A DNA stretch of 37,767 nt. Origin: Synergistaceae bacterium. Lineage in GTDB: Bacteria; Synergistota; Synergistia; Synergistales; Aminobacteriaceae. Below are positions 2,911 to 35,274 of this stretch, one piece after another; the stretch's first letter is position 1, and each line of letters begins with the position of its first letter. Location of the stretch: contig JAISUO010000092.1 of the NCBI GenBank assembly GCA_031272035.1, forward strand, positions 1-37,767. Direction: 5' to 3'. The notes beneath the pieces were generated by a model. It was not told the origin of the DNA. It saw only the letters and a program-made list of their open reading frames with translations, and made no database searches. Position numbers and translations under genes: made by a program.

Positions 2911-4359
2911 TTACAGGCTGTCGCCCAGGTCCTGGCGGAATTTTCGAGCCAGTTTTTCGGGCCAGTCGCTGACGGCGGTCAATTTCCCGCTGAAGAAACG
3001 AAGTATTTTCGGCTCGTTGACCCACTTCAGCCCGCCGACCAGGTTTCTGTTCTCGAAAAGCCAGTGGATGCGGTCGACGGCGTATTTGACCTGAGAAAGA
3101 GTGAAGACCCGTCGAGGCAGGGCCAGCCTCAGGAGTTCCACATCACAGAGGTGCTCCGAGCCGTCGGAGTTGCGTTCCTCCGACAGAGTGCCCCGCTCCA
3201 TGCCCCTCATCCCTCCGGCCAGGAAAACCGCCGCCGCCAGAGACCCCGCAGTAAATTCCTCCTGGGACACGTGCGGCAGAAATTCCCTGGCGTTCAGATG
3301 GCACCCCAGACCGCCGGCCGGCGTGACCACAGGGATTTTGCGGGCGATGAGCTCGGCCGCCATAAAACCGATGAACTCCGGTCCGTGACGGATCATGTCG
3401 AAGTCCATGGTCTCCTCCAGCCCCACCGCGATGGCCTCGATTTCCCGCACCGACATGCCGCCGTAGGTGAGGAACCCCTCGTACAGGGGAACGAACTCCA
3501 GCATGGCCTCGTACAGTTTCGCATCGCCGGTAAGGATCGCCCCGCCCCGGGCACAGCCCAGCTTGCGGGCGGAAAAGTAGACAATGTCGGCGGCGTCCGC
3601 TATGCTGCGGGTGATTTCACGTATGGACCTGTTTTTCTGAGATTCCTCACGGGTCTTTATGAAGTAGAGGTTATCCGCCAAAAGAGAGGCGTCCAGAACC
3701 AGCGGGATTTTGTGGGCCCTGCAAAGTTCGCTGGTCTCCTTCAGGTTGGCCAGGGACCAGGGTTGGCCTCCGATCAGGTTCGTTCCCGCTTCCATGCGGA
3801 CAAAGGGGATGTTGCCGGCAGATTTTTCAAGGATTTTTTTTAGCCCGGGGATGTTCATGTTGCCCTTGAAAGGCTCTGTGCTGGACAGGTTCATGGCCTC
3901 CGGAAGGAAACACTCCGCCACCGTCCCGCCCCGAAGTCCGATGTGGGCTTTTGTGGTGGTGAAATGGTAATTCATGGGCACGACGCTGCCTTTTGTAACA
4001 AAGGCGCTGGCGAGAATATTTTCCGCCGCGCGACCCTGGTGGGCCGGGAGGATGAACTCCTTGCCGAAAATCGAGCGCGTGGCCTCACTCAGACGCTCGA
4101 AACTCATGGATCCGGCGTAACTGTCGTCCGCGGTCATCATGGACGCCAGCTGTCTGTCGCTCATAGCGTTGACGCCGCTGTCCGTCAGCATGTCCAGGAA
4201 GACGGATTTGTTTTTCAGCAAAAACGTGTTGAACCCGGCTTCCCGTATCGCCGTAACCCGTTCTTCGATCGGGATGAGGTCCAGCTTCTGTATGATGCGC
4301 ACCTTGTGCATCTCCAGGGGAAAATTCTCGCCGCCAAAAAAATGGATAACCTGATTCAC
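2911..4359 (-). CDS. tpl: Tyrosine phenol-lyase (PLP beta-eliminating lyase)
   Basis: The 482-residue protein matches the tyrosine phenol-lyase/tryptophanase family along its length (usual length 455-475). The family splits L-Tyr into phenol, pyruvate and ammonia, or Trp into indole. Residues that favour tyrosine are present: Thr134 in YHFTTT, where tryptophanase has Asp, and Arg389 in MERG, where tryptophanase has Ile; in Citrobacter TPL these are Thr124 and Arg381 and contact the phenol. The PLP lysine is Lys266 in SARKLG, Asp223 would pair with the pyridine nitrogen, and Arg411 is the carboxylate-binding arginine. Two oddities: the family DATR motif is DASL here (Arg to Leu226), and the SGKKD/SAKKD motif reads SARKL. 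The GTG start has AAGGAG nine bases upstream. Expression appears to be governed by a leader peptide and attenuator upstream. The cytosolic role is tyrosine catabolism; specificity is inferred. Confidence 0.85.
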   Translation of the reverse strand: MNQVIHFFGGENFPLEMHKVRIIQKLDLIPIEERVTAIREAGFNTFLLKNKSVFLDMLTDSGVNAMSDRQLASMMTADDSYAGSMSFERLSEATRSIFGKEFILPAHQGRAAENILASAFVTKGSVVPMNYHFTTTKAHIGLRGGTVAECFLPEAMNLSSTEPFKGNMNIPGLKKILEKSAGNIPFVRMEAGTNLIGGQPWSLANLKETSELCRAHKIPLVLDASLLADNLYFIKTREESQKNRSIREITRSIADAADIVYFSARKLGCARGGAILTGDAKLYEAMLEFVPLYEGFLTYGGMSVREIEAIAVGLEETMDFDMIRHGPEFIGFMAAELIARKIPVVTPAGGLGCHLNAREFLPHVSQEEFTAGSLAAAVFLAGGMRGMERGTLSEERNSDGSEHLCDVELLRLALPRRVFTLSQVKYAVDRIHWLFENRNLVGGLKWVNEPKILRFFSGKLTAVSDWPEKLARKFRQDLGDSL

Positions 4360-4393: not shown

Positions 4394-4438
4394 AAAAAAA
4401 CGAGGGTCCTTCCCCCTTGTTTCGGTGAAGGACCCTCG
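4394..4438 (-). terminator. Intrinsic terminator in the tpl leader (attenuator)
   Basis: On the minus strand CGAGGGTCCTTC (4438-4427) pairs perfectly over 12 bp with GAAGGACCCTCG (4412-4401) around a 14-base loop. Seven consecutive T (4400-4394) follow. It lies 42 bases after the stop of the Tyr-rich leader peptide and 34 bases before the tpl start. It therefore sits inside the transcript of tpl and not after a gene, as expected for an attenuator. Confidence 0.85.
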
Positions 4439-4479
4439 TGAGAACCGCACAGTCTGTCGTTCTGTGTACAGGCCAAAAG

Positions 4480-4563
4480 TTACAAGCCCGGCATCCTCAC
4501 TGGTCCAGACTCGTAATAATAGTAATAAGCGTACACAAAACCGGCAACAAACGACTTTAGCAT
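4480..4563 (-). CDS. Tyrosine-rich leader peptide of tpl (27 residues)
   Basis: A short frame opens with ATG at 4563-4561. It encodes MLKSFVAGFV, then YAYYYYY, then a tail ending in MPGL and a TAA stop at 4482-4480. Six of seven consecutive codons at 4533-4513 except one Ala are Tyr (TAC/TAT). A GAGGAG Shine-Dalgarno (4582-4577) lies 13 bases upstream, somewhat far. The frame starts about 30 bases downstream of the predicted transcription start and is followed by an intrinsic terminator and then tpl. This is the arrangement of amino-acid leader peptides that control attenuation, here matching the substrate of the downstream enzyme. It could work by stalling at uncharged tRNA-Tyr or by a TnaC-like response to free tyrosine; the sequence does not decide which. 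Confidence 0.8.
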   Translation of the reverse strand: MLKSFVAGFVYAYYYYYESGPVRMPGL

Positions 4564-4599
4564 CCTGACACACTGTCTCCTCAAAAAATGATTTCGGAA

Positions 4600-4628
4600 A
4601 GGATAGCACACCTTTTTTCCACTGTCAA
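4600..4628 (-). promoter_or_regulatory. Sigma70-type promoter of the tpl leader
   Basis: On the minus strand a perfect TTGACA (-35, 4628-4623) is separated by 17 bases from TATCCT (-10, 4605-4600). Transcription would start near 4593, just ahead of the leader peptide's Shine-Dalgarno. Confidence 0.75.
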
Positions 4629-26158: not shown

Positions 26159-26966
26159 AGCTGCCGGTTTTTTTCGCGCCAAAAAACGGCTGGGGCAAAA
26201 TTTTCTGGCGGACCGCAACGTCCTTTTGGAAATTGTGAAGCGCGCTTCCATTGAGGGGGAAGACGTGGTGCTGGAGGTGGGACCGGGACGGGGCGTGCTG
26301 ACCCGGGAACTGCTCTCCGAAGGGTGTGTTCGTCTTTACGCCGTGGAGCTGGACAGGCGTCTTGCGAGCGAACTGGAGCCGCTCTGTGAGGAGGAGCCCC
26401 GGCTGCACCTGATCTGGGGGGACGCGATGAAGGTCGATTACGGCGCTTTGTCCCCGTTTCCCAACAAAATCGTGGCGAACATTCCCTATAACATCACGAC
26501 GCCTCTGATTTGGAAGATGCTTGAGTTCGCCCCCCGGGGTCTGACTTACCATCTTTATATGGTGCAGAAGGAAGCGGCGGACCGTCTTCTGGCGCCCCGG
26601 GACACGAAAGACCGTTATCCCCTGGGGGTGACGCTGGAGGCCATGGGAACCGTGACGCTGGTTCGGCATGTGCCGGCTTCCTGTTTTCGTCCGATGCCGC
26701 GGGTGGAGTCCGCCCTGGTGGAAATCACGCTGGTCGAAAATTTTCACCTGATGCACAATACTCTGTGGAGCGACCTTCTCCATGGGGCGTTTCGGCAGCG
26801 CCGCAAAACTTTGGTCAACAATCTGAAAGGGTTCGCGGGCATCGAGGACTGGCGTCCCGTTCTCGAAGAGGTTCAGATAGAAGAAAAAATACGGGCGGAG
26901 GATTTGAGTACAGAAGAATGGCTGAAGCTGTATTCCCGTCTGCCTGGTGACAGGGATATTTTTTAA
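26151..26966 (+). CDS. rsmA: 16S rRNA dimethyladenosine transferase RsmA (KsgA)
   Basis: RsmA dimethylates A1518 and A1519 of 16S rRNA with S-adenosylmethionine. The 271-residue protein has KKRLGQNFLADRNVL at the N-terminus, the SAM-binding motif VLEVGPGRGVLTREL (about residues 40-54), the catalytic NIPYNIT (about 110-116) and FRQRRKTLVNNL near the C-terminus. TTG 26151 is the start that gives the family N-terminus; it overlaps the ybaK stop. The last three codons and stop are tandemly copied in a 14-bp duplication. Confidence 0.93.
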   Translation: MAEAAGFFRAKKRLGQNFLADRNVLLEIVKRASIEGEDVVLEVGPGRGVLTRELLSEGCVRLYAVELDRRLASELEPLCEEEPRLHLIWGDAMKVDYGALSPFPNKIVANIPYNITTPLIWKMLEFAPRGLTYHLYMVQKEAADRLLAPRDTKDRYPLGVTLEAMGTVTLVRHVPASCFRPMPRVESALVEITLVENFHLMHNTLWSDLLHGAFRQRRKTLVNNLKGFAGIEDWRPVLEEVQIEEKIRAEDLSTEEWLKLYSRLPGDRDIF

Positions 26967-26982
26967 CAGATATTTTTTAACC
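26955..26982 (+). repeat. 14-bp tandem duplication of the rsmA 3' end and stop
   Basis: GATATTTTTTAACA is followed directly by GATATTTTTTAACC, 13 of 14 bases identical. The first copy encodes Asp-Ile-Phe-stop of rsmA. Confidence 0.8.
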
Positions 26983-27005
26983 GCAGTTTGTCGGAGGTCA
27001 TCGCA

Positions 27006-27034
27006 TTTACAAAAAGTGTCGGACGGATTAGTAT
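27006..27034 (+). promoter_or_regulatory. Predicted promoter of the mbh operon
   Basis: TTTACA (27006-27011) and TAGTAT (27029-27034) are separated by 17 bases. Transcription would start near 27041, about 35 bases before mbhA. No operator-like palindrome was noticed. Confidence 0.5.
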
Positions 27035-27075
27035 TGAGTGAACTTAAACATCTGGCCCAGACGGGAGGGAAAAGC

Positions 27076-27558
27076 ATGTTTGTGTTTGTAGTCTCGTTTA
27101 TCACATATCTGCTCCTTTCCTGGTCCGGTGAGTTGAGCATACAGGAAATCACTATTGCGTTTTTTCTGGCAATAACTGTGTCTCTTGTTGTTTCGACTTC
27201 GTCCCGGTCCGGTTTTTGGAGTACGAAAGGGCTAAGCCCGCAAAGGTGGTGGCATTTTCTGCAGTATATTTTCGGTCCTTTCGCCGTGGGGCTCGGCCAT
27301 GCCAATATCGACGTGGCGAAGCGGGTCATCTCGGGGAAAATCAACCCGGGTATCGTAAAATTCAACCCTCGCCTCAAAACCGACATCGGGCGCATGATGC
27401 TGGCGAATTCGATCACTCTGACTCCGGGGACTCTCACGGTGGACATCGACGACGATGGAACGTTTTACGTTCACACGATCTGGCTGGATACGCCCACGCC
27501 TTCGGAGGAGGACATATGCGGATCATTCGGCAAATGGGTCAGGAGGATAGTGGAATGA
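27076..27558 (+). CDS. mbhA: Membrane-bound hydrogenase subunit MbhA (MrpE-like)
   Basis: The 160-residue protein is homologous to MrpE/MnhE. Two N-terminal hydrophobic segments (about residues 1-20 and 24-42) are followed by the family region NPGIVKFNPRLKTDIGRMMLANSITLTPGTL and VHTIWLDTP. MrpE-like subunits are part of the ion-translocating module. ATG 27076 is chosen because GGAGGGAAAAG precedes it; the frame is open upstream without homology. First gene of a fourteen-gene operon; its stop overlaps mbhB (ATGA). Confidence 0.88.
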   Translation: MFVFVVSFITYLLLSWSGELSIQEITIAFFLAITVSLVVSTSSRSGFWSTKGLSPQRWWHFLQYIFGPFAVGLGHANIDVAKRVISGKINPGIVKFNPRLKTDIGRMMLANSITLTPGTLTVDIDDDGTFYVHTIWLDTPTPSEEDICGSFGKWVRRIVE

Positions 27559-27821
27559 GCGCCAGTCAGTATCTTTTTTCAGGTGTAGCCCTGCTTATGG
27601 GTCTGTTGATCGTTCTGGTCTCCGGACGGCTCATCGCCGGCCCCACCACGGCCGACCGGCTGATCGCTCTGGACACGATCAACACGCTGGTTTCCGGAAT
27701 TATGCTCCTTCTGGGAGCGGTGTACGATTCCGTGGTAATGGTGGATGTGGCCATCGTTTATATGGCGCTTTCTTTCGTGAGCACTCTTTATTTTGCCCGG
27801 CATCTCGAAGGGGGAATGTAG
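27555..27821 (+). CDS. mbhB: Hydrogenase subunit MbhB (MrpF-like)
   Basis: The 88-residue, three-helix protein matches MrpF/MnhF: VSGRLIAGPTTADRLIALDTINTL is the family signature. It contributes to the Na+/H+ pathway of the Mrp module. The ATG overlaps the mbhA stop and has an AGGAGG upstream; mbhC begins directly after its stop. Confidence 0.88.
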   Translation: MSASQYLFSGVALLMGLLIVLVSGRLIAGPTTADRLIALDTINTLVSGIMLLLGAVYDSVVMVDVAIVYMALSFVSTLYFARHLEGGM

Positions 27822-28214
27822 ATGATTCTGGCCATCGGCGTGGGGCTCCTTCTTCTTGTCAGCCTCGTTTTCAACTGTCTGGGAACCCTGGCCCTCTATC
27901 GTTTTCCTGACGTTTATACCCGTCTTCACGGGGCGACGAAGTGCACCACCTTCGGGACGCTTTTTGCCGTTTTTGCCCTGTTGCTGTACTCCATTGTGCG
28001 TTTTATGGCGGTGGAGGGAGAGGATCGTTTTCTGGTCCTGTTTATCCACGTCGTGATCGCGGGAATCGTCCTTCTGCTTTCGAATCCGGCCGGGGCGCAC
28101 GCTGTGGCGAGAGCCGCTCACCGCAGCGGAATTCTGCCGGAACCGGCCATCGTGGACTCACTGGAGGAGATGGAAAGAGAAATGAAAAAACGAAAAGGAG
28201 GAGTGGCGCAGTGA
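27822..28214 (+). CDS. mbhC: Hydrogenase subunit MbhC (MrpG-like)
   Basis: The 130-residue protein matches MrpG/MnhG, with three hydrophobic helices and the signature LYRFPDVYTRLHGATKCTTFG (about residues 26-46). A charged C-terminal tail (about 110-130) extends beyond the usual length. It is abutted by mbhB and overlaps mbhD by four bases. Confidence 0.88.
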   Translation: MILAIGVGLLLLVSLVFNCLGTLALYRFPDVYTRLHGATKCTTFGTLFAVFALLLYSIVRFMAVEGEDRFLVLFIHVVIAGIVLLLSNPAGAHAVARAAHRSGILPEPAIVDSLEEMEREMKKRKGGVAQ

Positions 28215-28465
28215 ACCCGTCGTTGCATGTGCCTGTTCTCATCACGTTGCTTGTTTCGGCCTTTATGGCGCTCTGGTTCAGAAATCTTCTGCATTCCGTC
28301 ATCGCGCTGGGCGTGTTCAGCCTTGTGCTCGCTCTTGAGTTCTATATTCTGCGGGCCCCTGACGTGGCCATAGCGGAGGCCTCCATCGGAGCCGGCCTTT
28401 CGACCACCATTTTCGTCATCACGCTTCGCGCTGTTCGGGACCGCAACAGGAGGGAAAAACCATGA
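28211..28465 (+). CDS. mbhD: Hydrogenase subunit MbhD (DUF4040, MrpA C-terminal part)
   Basis: The 84-residue protein has three hydrophobic helices and the motif APDVAIAEASIGAGLSTTIF, typical of MbhD/DUF4040 and of the corresponding region of MrpA. GTG 28211 overlaps the mbhC stop (GTGA). In Pyrococcus MBH this region belongs to the Na+/H+ exchange module. Confidence 0.85.
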   Translation: MNPSLHVPVLITLLVSAFMALWFRNLLHSVIALGVFSLVLALEFYILRAPDVAIAEASIGAGLSTTIFVITLRAVRDRNRREKP

Positions 28466-28734
28466 GAAAAGCGGTATATCTTGTGGCGGTTGTGGTGCTG
28501 GCCGGTTTGCTGAGCGGCATGTTCGGGGAACTGCACGTTTTCGGAGTTCCTCAGGCCACGGAGATGGACGACTATTTTCTCGCCCGCGCCCCTCTCGATC
28601 GATCGGCTCAAAATGTGGTGACCTCGCTGGTTTTCGACTTCAGAGGCTTCGACACGCTGGGAGAGGCGGGAGTGCTTTTCACCGCGCTCTGTTCTATCGG
28701 AGCGCTCTTCCGGGAGGGGGGGAAACGGGAATGA
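28462..28734 (+). CDS. mbhE: Hydrogenase subunit MbhE (MrpA C-terminal part)
   Basis: The 90-residue protein has an N-terminal and a C-terminal hydrophobic helix around an extracytoplasmic loop, with NVVTSLVFDFRGFDTLGEAGVLF, the feature of MbhE and of the MrpA end. It overlaps mbhD by four bases and mbhF by four bases, so translation is coupled. Confidence 0.82.
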   Translation: MRKAVYLVAVVVLAGLLSGMFGELHVFGVPQATEMDDYFLARAPLDRSAQNVVTSLVFDFRGFDTLGEAGVLFTALCSIGALFREGGKRE

Positions 28735-29219
28735 AACCTCTGTCCGTAATCGTGACGTCGGTGTGCGACATTTTCGCCTGGTTCATGATCGTTTTCGGCG
28801 TCTACGTCATCAATAACGGCCATAATACGCCGGGAGGCGGTTTCCAGGGAGGAGCCATCACCGCCACGTTTTTAAGCCTCGTCCTGGTGGCCCGGGGCGG
28901 AAAGAAATTTTACGCCTGGGTTCGGGAGGGAATATACGGTCTCTTCGAATTTATAGGGCTGATGGCCTTTTTTATCTTTGGCTGTATGGGCTTTCCCCAT
29001 TCTTTCTTCTTCAATTCCCTGGCCATTCCTCAGGGAGGGAAGGCTCTCTCCAACTGGATCCCCTGGAGCGGGACCATCGCACTGATGAACGTGTCCGTCG
29101 GCCTTGAGGTCATCGGAGCGCTGTCGCTGGTGATCGTCTACATGTACGGCAGTATCCGGATGGTCGAGACGGGCGCCGGAATGGGAGGAGAACGCGGTCA
29201 TGACCGATTCGATCGATAA
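28731..29219 (+). CDS. mbhF: Hydrogenase subunit MbhF (MrpB-like)
   Basis: The 162-residue membrane protein matches MrpB/MnhB: four hydrophobic segments and the signature NGHNTPGGGFQGGAITATFL (about residues 29-48). GTIALMNVSVGLEV follows in the third helix. The C-terminal about 15 residues are hydrophilic and overlap the mbhG start by 20 bases. Confidence 0.87.
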   Translation: MKPLSVIVTSVCDIFAWFMIVFGVYVINNGHNTPGGGFQGGAITATFLSLVLVARGGKKFYAWVREGIYGLFEFIGLMAFFIFGCMGFPHSFFFNSLAIPQGGKALSNWIPWSGTIALMNVSVGLEVIGALSLVIVYMYGSIRMVETGAGMGGERGHDRFDR

Positions 29220-29577
29220 AACGCTGGATTGCCTGGGCAACGCGTCCTACGTGGTGGTTGCCCTGCTGGTGCTGATGGCTCTGTACGCGATTCTGACTCA
29301 GAAAAACCTGATCAAAATCTGTATCGCCGTGGCGATTCTCGGTTCTTCCGCCAATTTGTTTCTCGTTTTGCTGGGATATCGGGATGGAGGGAACATTCCC
29401 ATTTATTATTTGAAAGGCGCGGAGGAAAGCATGGTTTTGCCCACTCCCCAGTGTCTGACGCTGACGGCGATCGTTATCGCTCTTGCCACCACGGCGCTGA
29501 TGCTCTCTCTGATCATCCTGATTCACAAGCATTATGGAACGCTGAACATCGATGAAATCAGGAGGTTACGGGGATGA
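29200..29577 (+). CDS. mbhG: Hydrogenase subunit MbhG (MrpC/NuoK-like)
   Basis: The 125-residue protein has three hydrophobic helices and matches MrpC/NuoK. The family segments are LIKICIAVAILGSSANLFLV and the PTPQCLTLTAIVIALATTALML helix. The ATG has GGAGGAG upstream inside mbhF; the stop overlaps mbhH by four bases. Confidence 0.87.
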   Translation: MTDSIDKTLDCLGNASYVVVALLVLMALYAILTQKNLIKICIAVAILGSSANLFLVLLGYRDGGNIPIYYLKGAEESMVLPTPQCLTLTAIVIALATTALMLSLIILIHKHYGTLNIDEIRRLRG

Positions 29578-31121
29578 GATTCTCTGAGCATCTGCCGGCT
29601 TTTCTCGTGATGGTTCCCCTGTTGGGGGCGTTTGCGACTCCGCTGGCGACATGTTTCGGCCGAAGGGTCAGCAACGTGTTTTTCCTTCTCTTTACGCTGC
29701 TGACTTTAATCATCGGCATTTCTGTCGGAACCGCCGCATTTGCCGGAAACACGCTGATCTACGTCATGGGCGGAGAGCATTTCGCGCTGACTCTTCCCTC
29801 CGGTATGACCTATCCCGTGCGTATCCTCTTTCAGATCGACGCGGCGGGCGCGATGATGATCCTCTGCGTTTGCCTGGCGGCCTTTGCCGGATCCCTTTTC
29901 TCGATCCACTACATGGAGCGCTTTTCCGGGTGGAAGCGTTTCCTGTCGCTGTATTTCCTGATGATGGCCGGGGCTTTGGGCATGTGCGCCACGGGGGACC
30001 TGTTCAACTTTTTCGTTTTTGTGGAAATATCTTCCATCGCCTCTTTCGGGCTGGTGGCTTTTTGGAGGGACAAGCCGGAGGCCATCGAGGCCAGTTACAA
30101 ATATATGCTGATTTCTCAGATAGCGGCGCTGCTGCTTCTGATTGCCATCGGTACGCTTTACGGGAAGTATGACGCGCTGAATATGGCGGCTCTGGCCTCA
30201 AAGCTGCGTCCCGGTGTGCTGGAGAGGATTGCTCTGGCCCTGATTATCGCTGTTCTGGCCTTCAAGTGCGGCGCGTTTCCCATGCACGCCTGGATGCCCG
30301 ATGCCTACGCCGAAGCTCCCGCGGGAGTGACCTGTCTTCTGGTGACGGTGAGCCAGGCCTCTTTTTATGGGCTGATTCGTGTTTGTTACTCCATTTTCCC
30401 CGGAGTTGCGCGCAGTGGCACGGTGGGGTGGATTTTGATCACTTTTGGCTGCATGTCCATGTTCTTCGGCGTGATGATGGCGGTTGTCCAGCACGAAATC
30501 AAGCGCCTCATGGGATACCATTCGATTTCCCAGGTGGGTTATATGCTGCTGGCCATGGGAGTGGGGCTTCTGGCGATAAACGGCGGAGACGGTCTGACCG
30601 CCGTGGAAGGCGGGCTTTTCCACGCCATGAACTACTCCATCTACAAGGCGCTGCTTTTTCTGTGCGCGGGGGCGCTCTATTACGCGACGGGCACCCGCGA
30701 CCTGGACAAAATGGGAGGGCTGGCCCGCAACATGCCCTGGACGGCGGGAATGTTCGTCGTGGCTGCCGCGGCCATTTCCGGACTGCCGCCTTTCAATGGG
30801 TTCGTCTCCAAGTGGCTGATTTACGAATCGAGTTTCAGAGTGCATCCCTTTCTGCCGGCTGTCGCCATGATTACCTCTGTTCTGACTCTGGCCTCCTTTG
30901 TCAAGGTTTTTCAGGCCGCGTTTCTGGGTCCGGCAAAGACGAAATTCCTGGCGGTGCGTGAAGTTCCCTCCGGAATGGTGGCGGGAATGATGATTTTGAC
31001 GGTGATGACTCTGCTGCTCTCTTTGTTCCCGGGCTGGTTCATGGACAATATTTTCACGAATGCGGCTCACGCCCTTTTGAATCAGCAGGGGTATATTCGC
31101 GCCGTTATGGGAGGAATGTAA
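29574..31121 (+). CDS. mbhH: Hydrogenase subunit MbhH (MrpD/NuoN-like antiporter)
   Basis: The 515-residue protein is the large antiporter-like subunit (Proton_antipo_M), with about fourteen hydrophobic helices. Conserved elements include Glu about 150 in FNFFVFVEISS, the Lys in FKCGAFPMHAWMPDAYAEAP, and HSISQVGYMLLAMG. It is the main candidate for Na+ or H+ translocation in the complex. It is in frame and full length, overlapping mbhG and ending one base before mbhI. Confidence 0.92.
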   Translation: MRFSEHLPAFLVMVPLLGAFATPLATCFGRRVSNVFFLLFTLLTLIIGISVGTAAFAGNTLIYVMGGEHFALTLPSGMTYPVRILFQIDAAGAMMILCVCLAAFAGSLFSIHYMERFSGWKRFLSLYFLMMAGALGMCATGDLFNFFVFVEISSIASFGLVAFWRDKPEAIEASYKYMLISQIAALLLLIAIGTLYGKYDALNMAALASKLRPGVLERIALALIIAVLAFKCGAFPMHAWMPDAYAEAPAGVTCLLVTVSQASFYGLIRVCYSIFPGVARSGTVGWILITFGCMSMFFGVMMAVVQHEIKRLMGYHSISQVGYMLLAMGVGLLAINGGDGLTAVEGGLFHAMNYSIYKALLFLCAGALYYATGTRDLDKMGGLARNMPWTAGMFVVAAAAISGLPPFNGFVSKWLIYESSFRVHPFLPAVAMITSVLTLASFVKVFQAAFLGPAKTKFLAVREVPSGMVAGMMILTVMTLLLSLFPGWFMDNIFTNAAHALLNQQGYIRAVMGGM

Positions 31122-31122
31122 A

Positions 31123-31461
31123 ATGTGGGGGCAGATCAACTCCGGGTGGGGATACTGGAACGTCTTCATCTGGCTTTTCTTCTTCGTTTTAATTTCCTTT
31201 TTCGTCCTGTGGGTTCGTTCGATGGGAAGGATGGACTACAAAAGAAATACCGATCAGGACGAAATTTACTGGTCCGGTAACGACGTTCCCGAGGACGGAG
31301 CCGACATATCGGTGCCCGCGTCGTCGTCGTACTGGGGTTTTCGAGTTGCCATGGAGCCGCTGTATCGTTTTTTGAATTCCTTTCACAGCGGAAACGCCTC
31401 CGATTATGCGGGGTATTTTGTTGTGACGACGGCGCTGGTCGGGATTCTTATTCTGTTTTAA
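31123..31461 (+). CDS. mbhI: Hydrogenase linker subunit MbhI
   Basis: The 112-residue protein has an N-terminal transmembrane helix (about residues 13-31), a polar middle part and a C-terminal helix (about 95-112). It matches in position and form MbhI, which links the Mrp module to the hydrogenase module in the Pyrococcus structure. Sequence motifs are weak, so the call leans on gene order. Confidence 0.7.
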   Translation: MWGQINSGWGYWNVFIWLFFFVLISFFVLWVRSMGRMDYKRNTDQDEIYWSGNDVPEDGADISVPASSSYWGFRVAMEPLYRFLNSFHSGNASDYAGYFVVTTALVGILILF

Positions 31462-31482
31462 GCGCCGGTGCAGAGGAGGCGA

Positions 31483-31986
31483 ATGAAAATGAAACCGTTG
31501 GATATTCTCGAAGTGCTGCCGCGTTCTTTGTGGGTTACGACGTGCAACTCCGGTTCCTGCAACGGCTGCGATATTGAAGTCGTGGCCACGCTGGGTCCTC
31601 GTTACGACATCGAGCGATTCGGTATGAAACTGGTGGGGACGCCGCGCCACGCGGATGTTATGATCGTCACCGGCCCCGTGACGCGATTCATGCGGGAGAA
31701 GGTGAAGCGTATCTACAGTCAGATGCCGGACCCCAAAGTGGTGATCGTAGTGGGCAACTGCGGCTGTTCCGGCGATGTTTTCTATAAATCCTACAACCTG
31801 GTGGGGCCGGTGGATAACATCATTCCGGTGGATGTTTACGTCCACGGATGCGCCCCGCGTCCGGAAGCCATCATCGAGGGCGTGACCAAAGCCGTGCTGA
31901 AACTGGAAAGCCTGCGTAAGAAAGAACCTGTAAGCAACGTTGTCGAAACCGTCGGCGAGCCGGTTGCCGGGGAGGTGGCACTGTGA
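31483..31986 (+). CDS. mbhJ: [NiFe]-hydrogenase small subunit MbhJ (NuoB-like)
   Basis: The 167-residue protein holds the proximal [4Fe-4S] cluster next to the catalytic subunit. Cysteines are in the NuoB/Mbh arrangement: Cys26 and Cys29 (SCNGC), Cys93 (GNCGCSG) and Cys123 (HGCAPRPE). No N-terminal Tat signal is present, as expected for a group 4 cytoplasm-facing enzyme. ATG 31483 is chosen because GAGGAGG precedes it; the frame is open five codons more upstream. The stop overlaps mbhK. Confidence 0.92.
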   Translation: MKMKPLDILEVLPRSLWVTTCNSGSCNGCDIEVVATLGPRYDIERFGMKLVGTPRHADVMIVTGPVTRFMREKVKRIYSQMPDPKVVIVVGNCGCSGDVFYKSYNLVGPVDNIIPVDVYVHGCAPRPEAIIEGVTKAVLKLESLRKKEPVSNVVETVGEPVAGEVAL

Positions 31987-32549
31987 CCTCCGCGTTCAAA
32001 AAGGGAACCATGGATTTTCAGGTTTTGATCGATGCGCTGCGGGTGAAATTCGATCCCGAGATTCTCAAACTGGAGGTTCACGAGCATCGGGGAGGCAGTC
32101 TTGGTGAAGTTCAGAGCCGCGACCTGTGGATTGAAATTTCCCGGAACGTGTTCCGTTCTTTTGTGGAAACGCTTTTCGAGTACGATTTCGTGAATTTTCA
32201 CGTGATTTCCGGCGACGATGTGGGTGTGACGGGAGAGGGAGACTCTCAGGAGGACTCCATCGTTCTTTATTATCACCTGTCTCTTTTTCAGCGTTCCCGC
32301 TGCGGGCGCATCGGTGTGACTTTGTCCATACGGGTACCGAAGAGCGACCTTTACGTTCCCTCTCTGTTCGACCTGCTTCCCGGGTCGGAATACAGCGAGC
32401 GGGAAATAAGGGAAATGTTTGGCGTCGAGTTCATCGGACTTCCGACCAACGCAATGGTCTTTTTACCGGAGGACTGGAACGAGAAAATCAAGCCCTGGCG
32501 CCGCGACGGCGTCGGCCCGACTCCCGAAGTGGTTCGGGAGTTGAGCTGA
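31983..32549 (+). CDS. mbhK: Hydrogenase subunit MbhK (NuoC-like)
   Basis: The 188-residue protein matches the 30-kDa NuoC family: VTLSIRVPKSDLYVPSLFDLLPGSEYSEREIREMFGVEF corresponds to the conserved core (pieces DLYVPSLFDL and EREIREMFG). It supports the catalytic subunit and has no cofactor. The GTG at 31983 overlaps the mbhJ stop and has a GGGGAGG upstream; an ATG nine codons later is an alternative. Confidence 0.87.
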   Translation: MTSAFKKGTMDFQVLIDALRVKFDPEILKLEVHEHRGGSLGEVQSRDLWIEISRNVFRSFVETLFEYDFVNFHVISGDDVGVTGEGDSQEDSIVLYYHLSLFQRSRCGRIGVTLSIRVPKSDLYVPSLFDLLPGSEYSEREIREMFGVEFIGLPTNAMVFLPEDWNEKIKPWRRDGVGPTPEVVRELS

Positions 32550-32583
32550 CCTGCGATTTTCGAACCTGCAGGAGGAATCTCAA

Positions 32584-33846
32584 ATGTCGACAACCTATAC
32601 AATACCGGTCGGGCCGGTGCATGTGGGTCTCAAGGAACCGGTGACCGCGTGGCTTGAACTGGAGGGCGAAAGGATCGTCGGTGCGCGGGTGCGGCCAGGG
32701 GCGATTCACCGCGGCATCGAATTCATGGCCCGGGAGCGTAATCCCATTCAGGTCATCTATCTTTCGGAACGAATCTGCGGAATCTGCTCCTTCAGTCACG
32801 TCCTGTGTTTCATTCGTGCGATAGAGGACCTGGCGAAAATGGAAGTCCCCATCCGCGGCCAGTATATTCGCAGCCTGGTGCTGGAGCTGGAGCGCATACA
32901 TTCCCATATTTTGTGGGCTGGAGTCGCCTGTTACACCATCGGTTTCGATTCCGCCTTCCACCTCGGTATGCAGCTGCGGGAACGCGTCATGGACATGCTG
33001 GAGCTGCTTTCGGGGAACCGCGTCAACTACGGCGTGGCCACCTTCGGCGGGGTGCGCTGGGATCTCACCTCCGAACTGGATAAGGCCCTGCGCGAAATGC
33101 TGCGTTACTACCGACGGGAGTTCGATCCTTTCAGAGAGATCGTCATGGAGGATCCCGTAGCTCAGGCGCGCATGAGAAACGTGGGTGTTCTGACGCGGGA
33201 TAACGCGGTCCGTTACAGCGCCGTGGGCCCCACGGCCCGGGCCAGCGGGCTGAGAGTCGATCTGCGCAAAAGCTCTCCCTACGAGGCATACGCGGATTTC
33301 GACGTGGAGCCCGTGGTGCCTCAGGATTATTTTGGCTCGGCCCACGGCGACGTGCTCGACCGGTTTGCCGTCCGGGTCATGGAGGTCTATCAGTCCCTGG
33401 AGATTATCGAGAACATTCTCGACGGACTTCCCGAAGGGCCTTTCGTTGCCGAATCCAATCTCAATAAAGTCCTGGCATCCCTTAAAAAAGCCGACGGCGT
33501 GGGGTGGGGGATCATCGAAGCGCCTCGGGGCGACGATACTCATATCGTCAGTCTTAAAGGCGGCGAGGATAACGTGTTCTGGTGGAAGGTTCGGGCGCCC
33601 ACCTACGCCAACGCGGTTTCATGGCCCATCATGTTTCAGGGCAACGAACTGGCCGACGCGCCCCTGATCATCAACAGCATCGACCCCTGCATCTCCTGCA
33701 TGGAGCGGATGCTGGTGGTGAACGAGCGGGGAGCTTCTGAAGTGGTCGAGAAAGCCGACCTGGTAAAGCGTTCGCGCCAAAAGACTTTCGAGCTTCGGTC
33801 CAGACTCGGTTCAAAATATGCCGGCGGAGGAGGTACGGGAAAGTGA
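32584..33846 (+). CDS. mbhL: [NiFe]-hydrogenase catalytic large subunit MbhL
   Basis: The 420-residue protein is a group 4 [NiFe]-hydrogenase large subunit, which reduces protons to H2 with electrons from ferredoxin. Both metal-binding motifs are complete: RICGICSFSH with Cys65 and Cys68, and DPCISCMER with Cys369 and Cys372. All four Cys are present, unlike the related Mbx/Mbs sulfane reductase, which lacks part of the set. About 47 residues follow the second motif, so a maturation protease would be expected to cleave there. No hyp maturation genes are in the window. The ATG has an AGGAGGAA upstream. It is transcribed after mbhK and overlaps mbhM. Confidence 0.94.
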   Translation: MSTTYTIPVGPVHVGLKEPVTAWLELEGERIVGARVRPGAIHRGIEFMARERNPIQVIYLSERICGICSFSHVLCFIRAIEDLAKMEVPIRGQYIRSLVLELERIHSHILWAGVACYTIGFDSAFHLGMQLRERVMDMLELLSGNRVNYGVATFGGVRWDLTSELDKALREMLRYYRREFDPFREIVMEDPVAQARMRNVGVLTRDNAVRYSAVGPTARASGLRVDLRKSSPYEAYADFDVEPVVPQDYFGSAHGDVLDRFAVRVMEVYQSLEIIENILDGLPEGPFVAESNLNKVLASLKKADGVGWGIIEAPRGDDTHIVSLKGGEDNVFWWKVRAPTYANAVSWPIMFQGNELADAPLIINSIDPCISCMERMLVVNERGASEVVEKADLVKRSRQKTFELRSRLGSKYAGGGGTGK

Positions 33847-34847
33847 TTCCTGTGTTTACGCTGTTTCTGAAAATTTTTGCGGGTATGGCGCTGCTGGCAC
33901 TGATCGTGGTTCTGGCTCTCCTGTTTGATGGCTTCGATCGCATCCTCCACGCGAGAATGCAGCGTCGCTACGGGCCTCCGCTGTTGCAGCCGGTGTATGA
34001 CATTCTGAAGCTGCTGGGCAAGGAAAACATCGTTCCCCGACGTGCTGTCCGCCTGATTTTTATGGCGTCGCCCTGGCTGACCCTTGTCACCACGCTCATG
34101 GTTTTTCTTTATCTTCCGGCGGGATCTTTCCCGGCAGTTTTGGGAACGGAAGGGGATATGGTGCTCATTGTGTATCTTTTGGCGATGAGCGGTCTTCTCA
34201 TGGCGATGGGAGGATTCGCCAGCGGGAACCCCATCGCAGCCATCGGCGCGGGGCGGGAAATCACGCTGATGATGAGTTATGAATTTCCTCTGGCGATCGT
34301 GGTCTGCAGTATGGCTTGGACGGCTTATCGTTTGGGAATGCCCGGCGAGCCCTTCAATCTGGAGACCTTTGCCGCTATATCGATTTGGTCGCTTGTGGGA
34401 AAGGCGGGCTTTATCGGGCTGCTCTGCCTCTTTCTGTCGCTGATACTGGTCGTTCCCGGCGAGGTGGGAAAGGGTCCCATGGACATTCCCGAGGCGAAGA
34501 CGGAGATCCTGGACGGTCTCATCATTGAATACAGCGGTGTCAACCTCGCCATGTTCAAACTGACTTTCGCTCTGCGTTCCTTTGCGATAGCGACTTTTGT
34601 GACCTGTCTGTTCGTTCCCCTGTCTCTGAGGAGCCTTTTCGGCATTGGCGGGTTCGTGGTGGCGGTCTTCGATTTTGTGTTTTTCTGGGTGAAGGTTTTC
34701 GTTGTGCAGATGCTTTTTGTAACGGTCATGCGCACGGCCTTCGGACGTCTCAAAATAGCTCAGGCTTCGCGTTTCTACACCCTGAACGTGGCGGGACTGT
34801 CCATTGCGGGAATGCTTCTGCTTTCCGTCGACGTCCTCATGAGATAG
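33843..34847 (+). CDS. mbhM: Hydrogenase membrane subunit MbhM (NuoH-like)
   Basis: The 334-residue protein has about eight hydrophobic helices and anchors the hydrogenase module. NuoH features are RRYGPPLLQPVYDILKLLGKENI (about residues 40-62), EITLMMSYEFPL and GKGPMDIPEAKTEI with EYSGVN (about 209-235). It is fused in position to mbhL by a four-base overlap. In complex I this subunit lines the quinone chamber; here it connects to proton reduction. Confidence 0.92.
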   Translation: MIPVFTLFLKIFAGMALLALIVVLALLFDGFDRILHARMQRRYGPPLLQPVYDILKLLGKENIVPRRAVRLIFMASPWLTLVTTLMVFLYLPAGSFPAVLGTEGDMVLIVYLLAMSGLLMAMGGFASGNPIAAIGAGREITLMMSYEFPLAIVVCSMAWTAYRLGMPGEPFNLETFAAISIWSLVGKAGFIGLLCLFLSLILVVPGEVGKGPMDIPEAKTEILDGLIIEYSGVNLAMFKLTFALRSFAIATFVTCLFVPLSLRSLFGIGGFVVAVFDFVFFWVKVFVVQMLFVTVMRTAFGRLKIAQASRFYTLNVAGLSIAGMLLLSVDVLMR

Positions 34848-34860
34848 AGGAGGGATTGTA

Positions 34861-35274
34861 TTGATCACACGCGTATTGATTCAGATTGTCAAACAGTTTT
34901 TTTCGCGAGTCGCGACCAATCCTTTTCCGGCCAGGAACATGCCTCCGTCTCTGATGGACGTGCTGAACAACCCTGAGGCGCAGCTCAATCCGCCTGTGCC
35001 GGTGGGGAAACGCTTTCGAGGCAGGCTCAGCTACGACAAAAAGAAGTGCATCGGCTGCAGGCTCTGCACGAAGGTCTGTCCGGCGAACGCCACGGAGTAT
35101 CTTCCGAGCGAAAAGAAGATTGTCATCCATAACGATCGATGCTGTTTCTGCGCTCAGTGCACGGAAATCTGCCCGGTGAAATGTCTGTCCATGTCGAAGG
35201 AATATATGATCTCGTCCTACGAACGCAAGACGAACCTCGTCATCGACAGCGGCCCTGTGCCCAAACCGGAATAG
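34861..35274 (+). CDS. mbhN: Hydrogenase ferredoxin-like subunit MbhN (NuoI-like)
   Basis: The 137-residue protein has two CxxCxxCxxxCP cluster motifs: Cys63/66/69/73 and Cys94/97/100/104, binding two [4Fe-4S] clusters that carry electrons from ferredoxin to MbhJ. An extra Cys95 stands beside Cys94. The N-terminal about 50 residues are family-typical. TTG 34861 is the start, with GAGGAGGG upstream. It is the last gene of the operon; a strong terminator follows. Confidence 0.92.
   Translation: MITRVLIQIVKQFFSRVATNPFPARNMPPSLMDVLNNPEAQLNPPVPVGKRFRGRLSYDKKKCIGCRLCTKVCPANATEYLPSEKKIVIHNDRCCFCAQCTEICPVKCLSMSKEYMISSYERKTNLVIDSGPVPKPE

Follow-up and report, generated by a model that had tools for sequence, protein, structure and literature searches.

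A predicted tyrosine-codon attenuator precedes a tyrosine phenol-lyase-like gene in Synergistota

The stretch of DNA considered here, referred to as a whole as the window, comprises 37,767 nucleotides of the draft genome of a Synergistaceae bacterium (G000, 98% complete). All elements of the candidate regulatory switch, together with the lyase gene that follows them, lie on its minus strand. A predicted sigma-70 type promoter (TTGACA-17-TATCCT, 4600-4628), recognized by its consensus match only, consists of a -35 box TTGACA at 4628-4623, a 17 bp spacer and a -10 box TATCCT at 4605-4600. Ten of its 12 positions agree with the consensus, and TG precedes the -10 box. An SD-like GGAG at 4580 is followed by an open reading frame of 27 codons plus a TAA stop (MLKSFVAGFVYAYYYYYESGPVRMPGL*, 4480-4563), which begins with ATG at 4563 and ends with TAA at 4480. 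Tyrosine occupies codons 11 and 13-17 of this leader, and thus six of the seven positions of the sequence YAYYYYY, and we consider the corresponding codons (TAC GCT TAT TAC TAT TAT TAC, 4513-4533) to be the regulatory ones. Beyond the leader is a predicted intrinsic terminator (4394-4438), whose stem at 4438-4401 is formed by CGAGGGUCCUUC and GAAGGACCCUCG (12 bp and 2 more) and is followed by seven U residues, corresponding to seven T at 4400-4394. Exactly 34 bases past the T run, a GTG codon at 4359 starts the gene for a 482-amino-acid beta-eliminating lyase (2911-4359; PF01212, PRK13238). The promoter, the 27-codon Tyr leader, its stop, the terminator, the 34-base gap and the lyase gene had all been described in a sequence-only reading of this DNA and were confirmed; the interval given there begins at the -10 box and omits the -35 box.

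A 246 nt stretch of this locus has a predicted folding energy of -83.2 kcal/mol, compared with -65.2 +/- 4.2 kcal/mol for shuffled sequences (z -4.3). When 4227 Rfam families were searched, no match at gathering score was found in the window, and an examination of the other TAY runs of G000 revealed no second Tyr leader in that genome. A sequence near 1050-1250 of L097 (G000:C69), downstream of a chance Tyr-codon run, resembles by eye the core of a cobalamin riboswitch. Elsewhere in the window, a gene on the plus strand (393-2834), convergent with the lyase gene, encodes an 813-amino-acid protein with two DUF3798 (PF12683) domains, and the plus-strand region 26947-35274 looks, from the list of open reading frames only, like a Mrp-type antiporter set with a group 4 NiFe-hydrogenase/NADH dehydrogenase-like cluster.

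The leader and terminator appear to be parts of a more elaborate structure, in which three helices compete. A predicted sequestering hairpin of the 1:2 type, P1 (4480-4516), pairs UUACGAGUCUGG with CCGGGCUUGUAA and thereby connects the last Tyr codons with the region of the stop codon; it is present in the minimum free energy fold and in the pairing of 15 aligned copies of the motif, where the outer helix is formed in 100% and the inner helix in 80% of cells. Segment 2, the putative 5' arm of an antiterminator (GGACCAGUGAG, GGACC..., 4496-4506), begins 6 nt past the last Tyr codon and is proposed on comparative and folding evidence. Its partner, segment 3 (CUCACGAGGGUCC, 4430-4442), overlaps the 5' arm of the terminator. 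Covariation within the helices was examined on the first seven copies and subsequently on 15. In the larger set the 5 bp core of the antiterminator is 98.7% paired, with eight cells changed on both sides, and none of 500 shuffles was as good, while slid controls gave 5-77%. P1 and the terminator together are 92% paired in the 15 copies with 11 pairs changed on both sides (0 of 500 shuffles as good; slid controls 30-60%), and the terminator helix by itself is 97.6% paired. All three mutually exclusive helices have therefore been maintained by compensatory changes. In the window by itself, the segment 2/3 duplex has an unremarkable energy, matched by 103 of 500 shuffles, and the argument for the antiterminator is therefore comparative and rests on the set of copies. 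The sequence-only reading had found the leader and the terminator but overlooked the antiterminator and the sequestering hairpin, as well as a second set of genes, described below, that lies under the same switch.

Folding was also simulated for 16 leaders with a ribosome placed on each. For a stall that puts the A site early in the Tyr run, with the RNA available for pairing from 13 nt downstream, segment 2 is predicted to pair with the terminator's 5' arm in every one of the 16. When the ribosome is placed at the stop codon instead, this arm pairs elsewhere or is left unpaired. The features of trp- or phe-type attenuators (a leader with tandem codons, an intrinsic terminator, an antiterminator and a 1:2 hairpin) are thus all represented, on comparative and folding evidence. 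Comparison establishes the predicted anatomy of the switch, the mutual exclusion of its helices and its link with tyrosine codons, and we infer from these a response of the cell to tyrosine. Very probably, the switch works by ribosome-mediated transcription attenuation of the classical kind, with tyrosine as the amino acid that is sensed, and is turned on by a shortage of charged tRNA-Tyr. When charged tRNA-Tyr is ample, the ribosome would pass the Tyr codons and reach the stop codon, where it covers segment 2, or would leave, so that P1 forms. Segment 3 would thereby be free to pair with segment 4 in the terminator (3:4), and transcription would stop at 4394. With charged tRNA-Tyr in short supply, the ribosome would wait within the Tyr run and block P1; segment 2 (GGACCAGUGAG) would then pair with segment 3, the terminator would be prevented from forming, and the lyase gene would be transcribed. 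The lyase, or the proteins encoded behind the switch in relatives, would then restore tyrosine.

To define the distribution of the switch, a covariance model made from the first seven copies was used to search 183 genomes of the order. This yielded 16 convincing copies. A larger model recovered these copies and, as its one addition, an Ile leader in G022, and weak matches of the first model in G020, G026, G027, G133, G004 and G178 were absent with the larger one and were discarded. Two further, diverged copies in G166 and G167 (MMGKAFINNRYYYCYYAYPRMYNAPGLFAVSLK), both upstream of a symporter gene, were recognized by eye, the copy in G167 (L156) having a weak model score. The diverged Tyr leader at L156 (G167) and L168 (G166) reads RYYYCYYAYPRMY, with a weak or no covariance-model score. 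Equivalent leaders with three to six clustered Tyr codons in the same place thus occur at 17 loci besides that of the window. The closest lyase genes of the order (72-81% identity) share the leader arrangement, with the leaders MSSVISVISIVFVYVYYYESGPLRVPGL, MACVFSFDFANAYYYYETGSFRRPGL, MKWSFFDMSSAFRAIPSGLYYYYRYRKLDL, MFTCFGTCVVLNAYYYYGSEPFARRLEP, MMHVSGISFVILNAYYYYGTRPFARRLEP, LLKNFVNAVFTYYYYYYERGFFFERTVL (which has a TTG start) and MRRTGTAFVAAAYYYYRTEPFARRSEL; L001 and G155 refer to the same contig. A plain terminator next to a small frame that arose by chance, without regulation by tyrosine, might have been suspected, given that the antiterminator of the window alone is no better than that of shuffled sequence. 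That explanation is barely credible, however, since the Tyr run and the hairpins, with their spacing, are conserved at 18 loci of the order and precede gene sets of two unrelated kinds. Because these features recur before the lyase in seven other genomes, the arrangement is not a product of chance. The sequence-only reading had proposed that the Tyr leader and the intrinsic terminator set transcription of the lyase gene, to be abandoned if frame, Tyr run and hairpin proved not to be conserved in relatives; conservation of all three was found and supports the proposal.

The second gene set offers information on the sign of control. Among the 18 genomes with the switch, the lyase gene is downstream in eight and a gene for a sodium:solute symporter in 10. 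Nine copies, seven of them strong and two diverged (G166, G167), precede one symporter group, whose members are 65-82% identical to the G153 protein, and a looser copy in G028 precedes another symporter. At all four loci that were read further (L134:2869-6105; also L135, L136 and L137) the symporter gene is followed by a gene for an AMP-forming acyl-CoA ligase, giving a putative operon behind the Tyr switch. No genome in the order has both a switch-controlled lyase and that symporter, and in genus g43 the switch precedes the lyase gene in one species and the symporter gene in another. The symporter family of genus g11 lacks an upstream Tyr leader. The fact that the switch also precedes a symporter gene favours a response to shortage. 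The closest solved relatives of the ligase include FadD13, feruloyl-CoA synthetase and 4-coumarate-CoA ligase, and indolepyruvate oxidoreductase is encoded (E <= 1e-50) in 11 of 16 switch genomes. An aryl-acid route to tyrosine in methanogens is cited in PMC4162585, and an acyl-CoA ligase and indolepyruvate oxidoreductase may correspond to the needs of such a route.

A different mechanism is suggested by tryptophanase, another PLP-dependent beta-eliminating lyase for an aromatic amino acid that is preceded by a leader peptide. TnaC, the leader of tryptophanase, is a conserved arrest peptide that acts through Rho-dependent termination and turns expression on when free Trp is abundant. By analogy, the nascent Tyr-rich peptide might arrest the ribosome when free tyrosine is abundant, such that the substrate induces a catabolic lyase. 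Such a response would suit an enzyme of degradation. Segment 2 would likewise be freed by a ribosome stalled within the Tyr run for whatever cause, and a short peptide motif, (A/V)-YYYY-(E/R/G)-(S/T)-G-P, does recur among the leaders. However, the peptides are conserved only in the Tyr run and its immediate context, and their N-terminal halves have no residues in common. The residues shared after the run (E/R-T/S-G-P, then P-x-L) are those whose codons make up segment 2 and the arms of P1, and they are therefore dictated by RNA pairing. In G155 the leader terminates inside segment 2, and in G148 it crosses the 3' arm of P1 in another frame, yet both loci retain P1, the antiterminator and the terminator, which makes a TnaC-like arrest peptide unlikely. 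Assembly errors could have produced the two shifted frames, but this is improbable for two independent cases. A stall at the stop codon, as in TnaC, loses the antiterminator in the folding simulations. In contrast to the TnaC system, no conserved arrest peptide is found here, an antiterminator is present, and the terminator is intrinsic with a U tract and not Rho-dependent. Control of an uptake gene as the alternative target, and the opposite sign implied for the same enzyme subfamily by T-boxes of Bacillota (see below), also speak against arrest by free tyrosine, which we regard as very unlikely. The sequence-only reading had left the sign open, noting that a catabolic gene favours a TnaC-like system; the evidence points instead to the classical attenuator, on when charged tRNA-Tyr is scarce.

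The identity of the lyase bears on what such control would accomplish. The protein matches PRK13238 of NCBIfam (563 bits) and PF01212 of Pfam (160.4 bits, above the 27-bit gathering cut-off), and aligns over its full length with tyrosine phenol-lyase (TPL) structures at 39% identity. Because of this identity to solved TPL, a TPL-type fold is nearly certain for the predicted protein. Three cut-offs are missed, with scores of 406 against 720.7 bits for the TPL equivalog model (TIGR02618), 397 against 750 for TnaA-pg1401 and 313 against 825.8 for TnaA, and in the tree the lyase belongs to a subfamily that is the sister of TPL and set apart from it by a long branch. The name tyrosine phenol-lyase, used in the sequence-only reading, is accordingly not confirmed, and we describe the enzyme as a member of a TPL-like sister subfamily with putative activity. 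Residues of the TPL phenol site are retained (Tyr71, Thr124, Met379, Arg381, Phe448 and Phe449), as are the PLP contacts Asp214 and Lys257. Arg217, a further PLP contact, is replaced by Leu in 67 of 69 members, and the subfamily also differs from TPL by Phe for Met288 and Arg for Lys256. The literature searched reported no activity for any subfamily member. Likewise, no recurrent partner gene was found in the neighbourhood of 80 lyase relatives, which therefore gives no hint of function.

Additional information comes from relatives of the lyase outside Synergistota. Of 41 loci of the subfamily that were scanned, 16 have a T-box on the strand of the lyase gene, with its end 60-200 nt upstream of that gene (L011, L016, L020, L022, L037, L039, L046, L048, L049, L050, L053, L058, L062, L064, L066 and L067). 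According to their records, 15 of these loci are from Bacillota and one, L058, is from Mycoplasmatota. The specifier is the Tyr codon UAC in 15 of the 16, that of L053 being read one base along, and UGC in L066. The T-box sequence is UGGUACC or UGGUAAC, which fits a tRNA with A73. T-boxes turn genes on with uncharged tRNA, and the attenuator and the T-box are thus both predicted to be on when charged tRNA-Tyr is scarce. In the lyase tree the T-box loci are scattered, and the loci with a leader form one clade with two further rows. A simple scan of small reading frames found no Tyr leader in relatives outside Synergistota; a frame at L016 that begins MVSMDYYYYSN was considered as a Tyr leader and rejected as a chance occurrence, since a T-box stands at this locus. 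Counting against the proposed explanation, no Tyr sensor was found before most lyase relatives, and many of their genomes have prephenate dehydrogenase (TyrA). The presence of the same enzyme family behind different sensors of tyrosine shortage in unrelated bacteria suggests that it is used to make tyrosine and not to destroy it.

We also considered whether the genomes concerned encode the usual route to tyrosine. TyrA scores above the cut-off in 77 of the 183 genomes of the order, most of which are draft assemblies, but in just two of the 18 switch genomes (G088 and G148). It is missing from 16 of 18 switch genomes compared with 90 of the 165 others (Fisher p 0.005, relatedness ignored). Similarly, TyrA is missing from eight of 16 genomes with a T-box before the lyase and from none of 17 lyase genomes without one (p 0.0009, a value that ignores relatedness and refers to genomes whose completeness is not known). 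Chorismate synthase is missing from 13 of 18 genomes checked, including 12 of the 16 switch carriers found by the model. TyrA is lacking in G090 and G153, although both genomes encode chorismate synthase and prephenate dehydratase. In G000 the genes trpE-trpG-aroF-pheA, assigned by eye, reach the contig end directly after pheA (L127), and because the contig ends there the missing tyrA and aroC could reflect a gap. Among the lyase genomes of the clade, TyrA is retained in G088 alone, where the tyrA gene (L128, G088:C47:36502-37360) and the switch-controlled lyase gene are about 1.3 kb apart.

The lyase most likely supplies tyrosine, and for the direction of its reaction in the cell we infer synthesis. 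The simplest route would be the reverse of the TPL reaction, in which phenol, pyruvate and NH3 yield tyrosine. We lean somewhat towards a broader reading in which the lyase is a tyrosine synthase that uses phenol, with pyruvate and ammonia or with serine, in bacteria without TyrA. Its control by starvation would have been acquired separately in two phyla, as a Tyr-codon attenuator in Synergistota and as Tyr T-boxes in Bacillota, and in Synergistota it would alternate with the symporter/acyl-CoA ligase operon, which may import 4-hydroxyphenylacetate for an aryl-acid route. A less probable, though serious, alternative is that the starvation-responsive switch is real and the lyase acts on another beta-substituted amino acid or serves a role other than supply. 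The distance of the subfamily from TPL in the tree, the failed TPL cut-off, the Leu at position 217 in 67 of 69 members, the Phe in place of Met288 and the lack of a reported activity in the literature searched are compatible with such a role. Retention of the six phenol-site residues weighs against it, as does the convergence of two unrelated Tyr sensors on this lyase, preferentially in genomes without TyrA.

The proposed switch resembles the trp, his and phe attenuators of enterobacteria (TrpL, PheL) in its codon run, three competing helices, intrinsic terminator and activation on starvation. It differs from TrpL and PheL in that the regulatory residue is Tyr and the host belongs to Synergistota, and its target is not a standard biosynthetic operon but either a lyase with a degradative annotation or a transport/ligase operon. 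Enterobacterial TPL (Citrobacter, Erwinia/Pantoea) is controlled by TyrR. That enzyme shares the PLP fold family and residues Tyr71, Thr124, Arg381 and Phe448 with the lyase, which is however 39% identical, scores below the TPL cut-off, has Leu for Arg217, and has a different regulation of opposite predicted sign. Tyr T-boxes of Bacillota respond likewise to tRNA-Tyr charging and precede the same lyase subfamily, but there the RNA reads the tRNA directly, without leader peptide or ribosome. The AroR leader of Corynebacterium glutamicum aroF is similar in having aromatic codons (Phe-Tyr-Phe) and ribosome-mediated attenuation; it is reported to respond to the availability of Phe, not Tyr, and controls a DAHP synthase (PMC11802643). 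The uORFC-13-1 motif likewise combines a uORF with a terminator before an aromatic pathway gene but differs in the gene, having been found solely before aroF (PMC8632094). In Actinobacteria, a survey detected no RNA structures upstream of tyrosine operons; it lists control by Tyr T-boxes elsewhere (PMC1262725).

No Tyr leader or T-box linked to TPL was found in the open-licence literature searched, in agreement with the sequence-only reading, which knew of no described Tyr leader for this enzyme. As far as we could find, the proposed switch would thus be the first Tyr-codon attenuator tied to this lyase subfamily and one of the earliest attenuators to be described in Synergistota, and the sign expected for a lyase of the TPL/tryptophanase family would be reversed. 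If the lyase makes tyrosine from phenol, this would constitute an unrecognized route, and apparent tyrosine auxotrophs would be prototrophic when given phenol. Automatic annotations as 'tryptophanase' or 'tyrosine phenol-lyase', and predictions of auxotrophy for gut and anaerobic bacteria, would then require correction.

The additional match of the larger covariance model, in G022, was rejected as a Tyr leader; it is an Ile/Val leader, MNKLAVSALTSRAVSIIIAIIIIRCGAPPGALLVV, with the Ile run SIIIAIIII, and it stands with a terminator before ilvN-ilvC (L151:1445-1640; G022:C174 near 2654). As a positive control, this leader indicates that codon-run attenuators do occur upstream of biosynthetic genes in this order. 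A member of the lyase subfamily with 64.7% identity, annotated as tryptophanase, is encoded on a large plasmid of Rhodobacter sp. CZR27 (NZ_CP023549.1:232895-234331).
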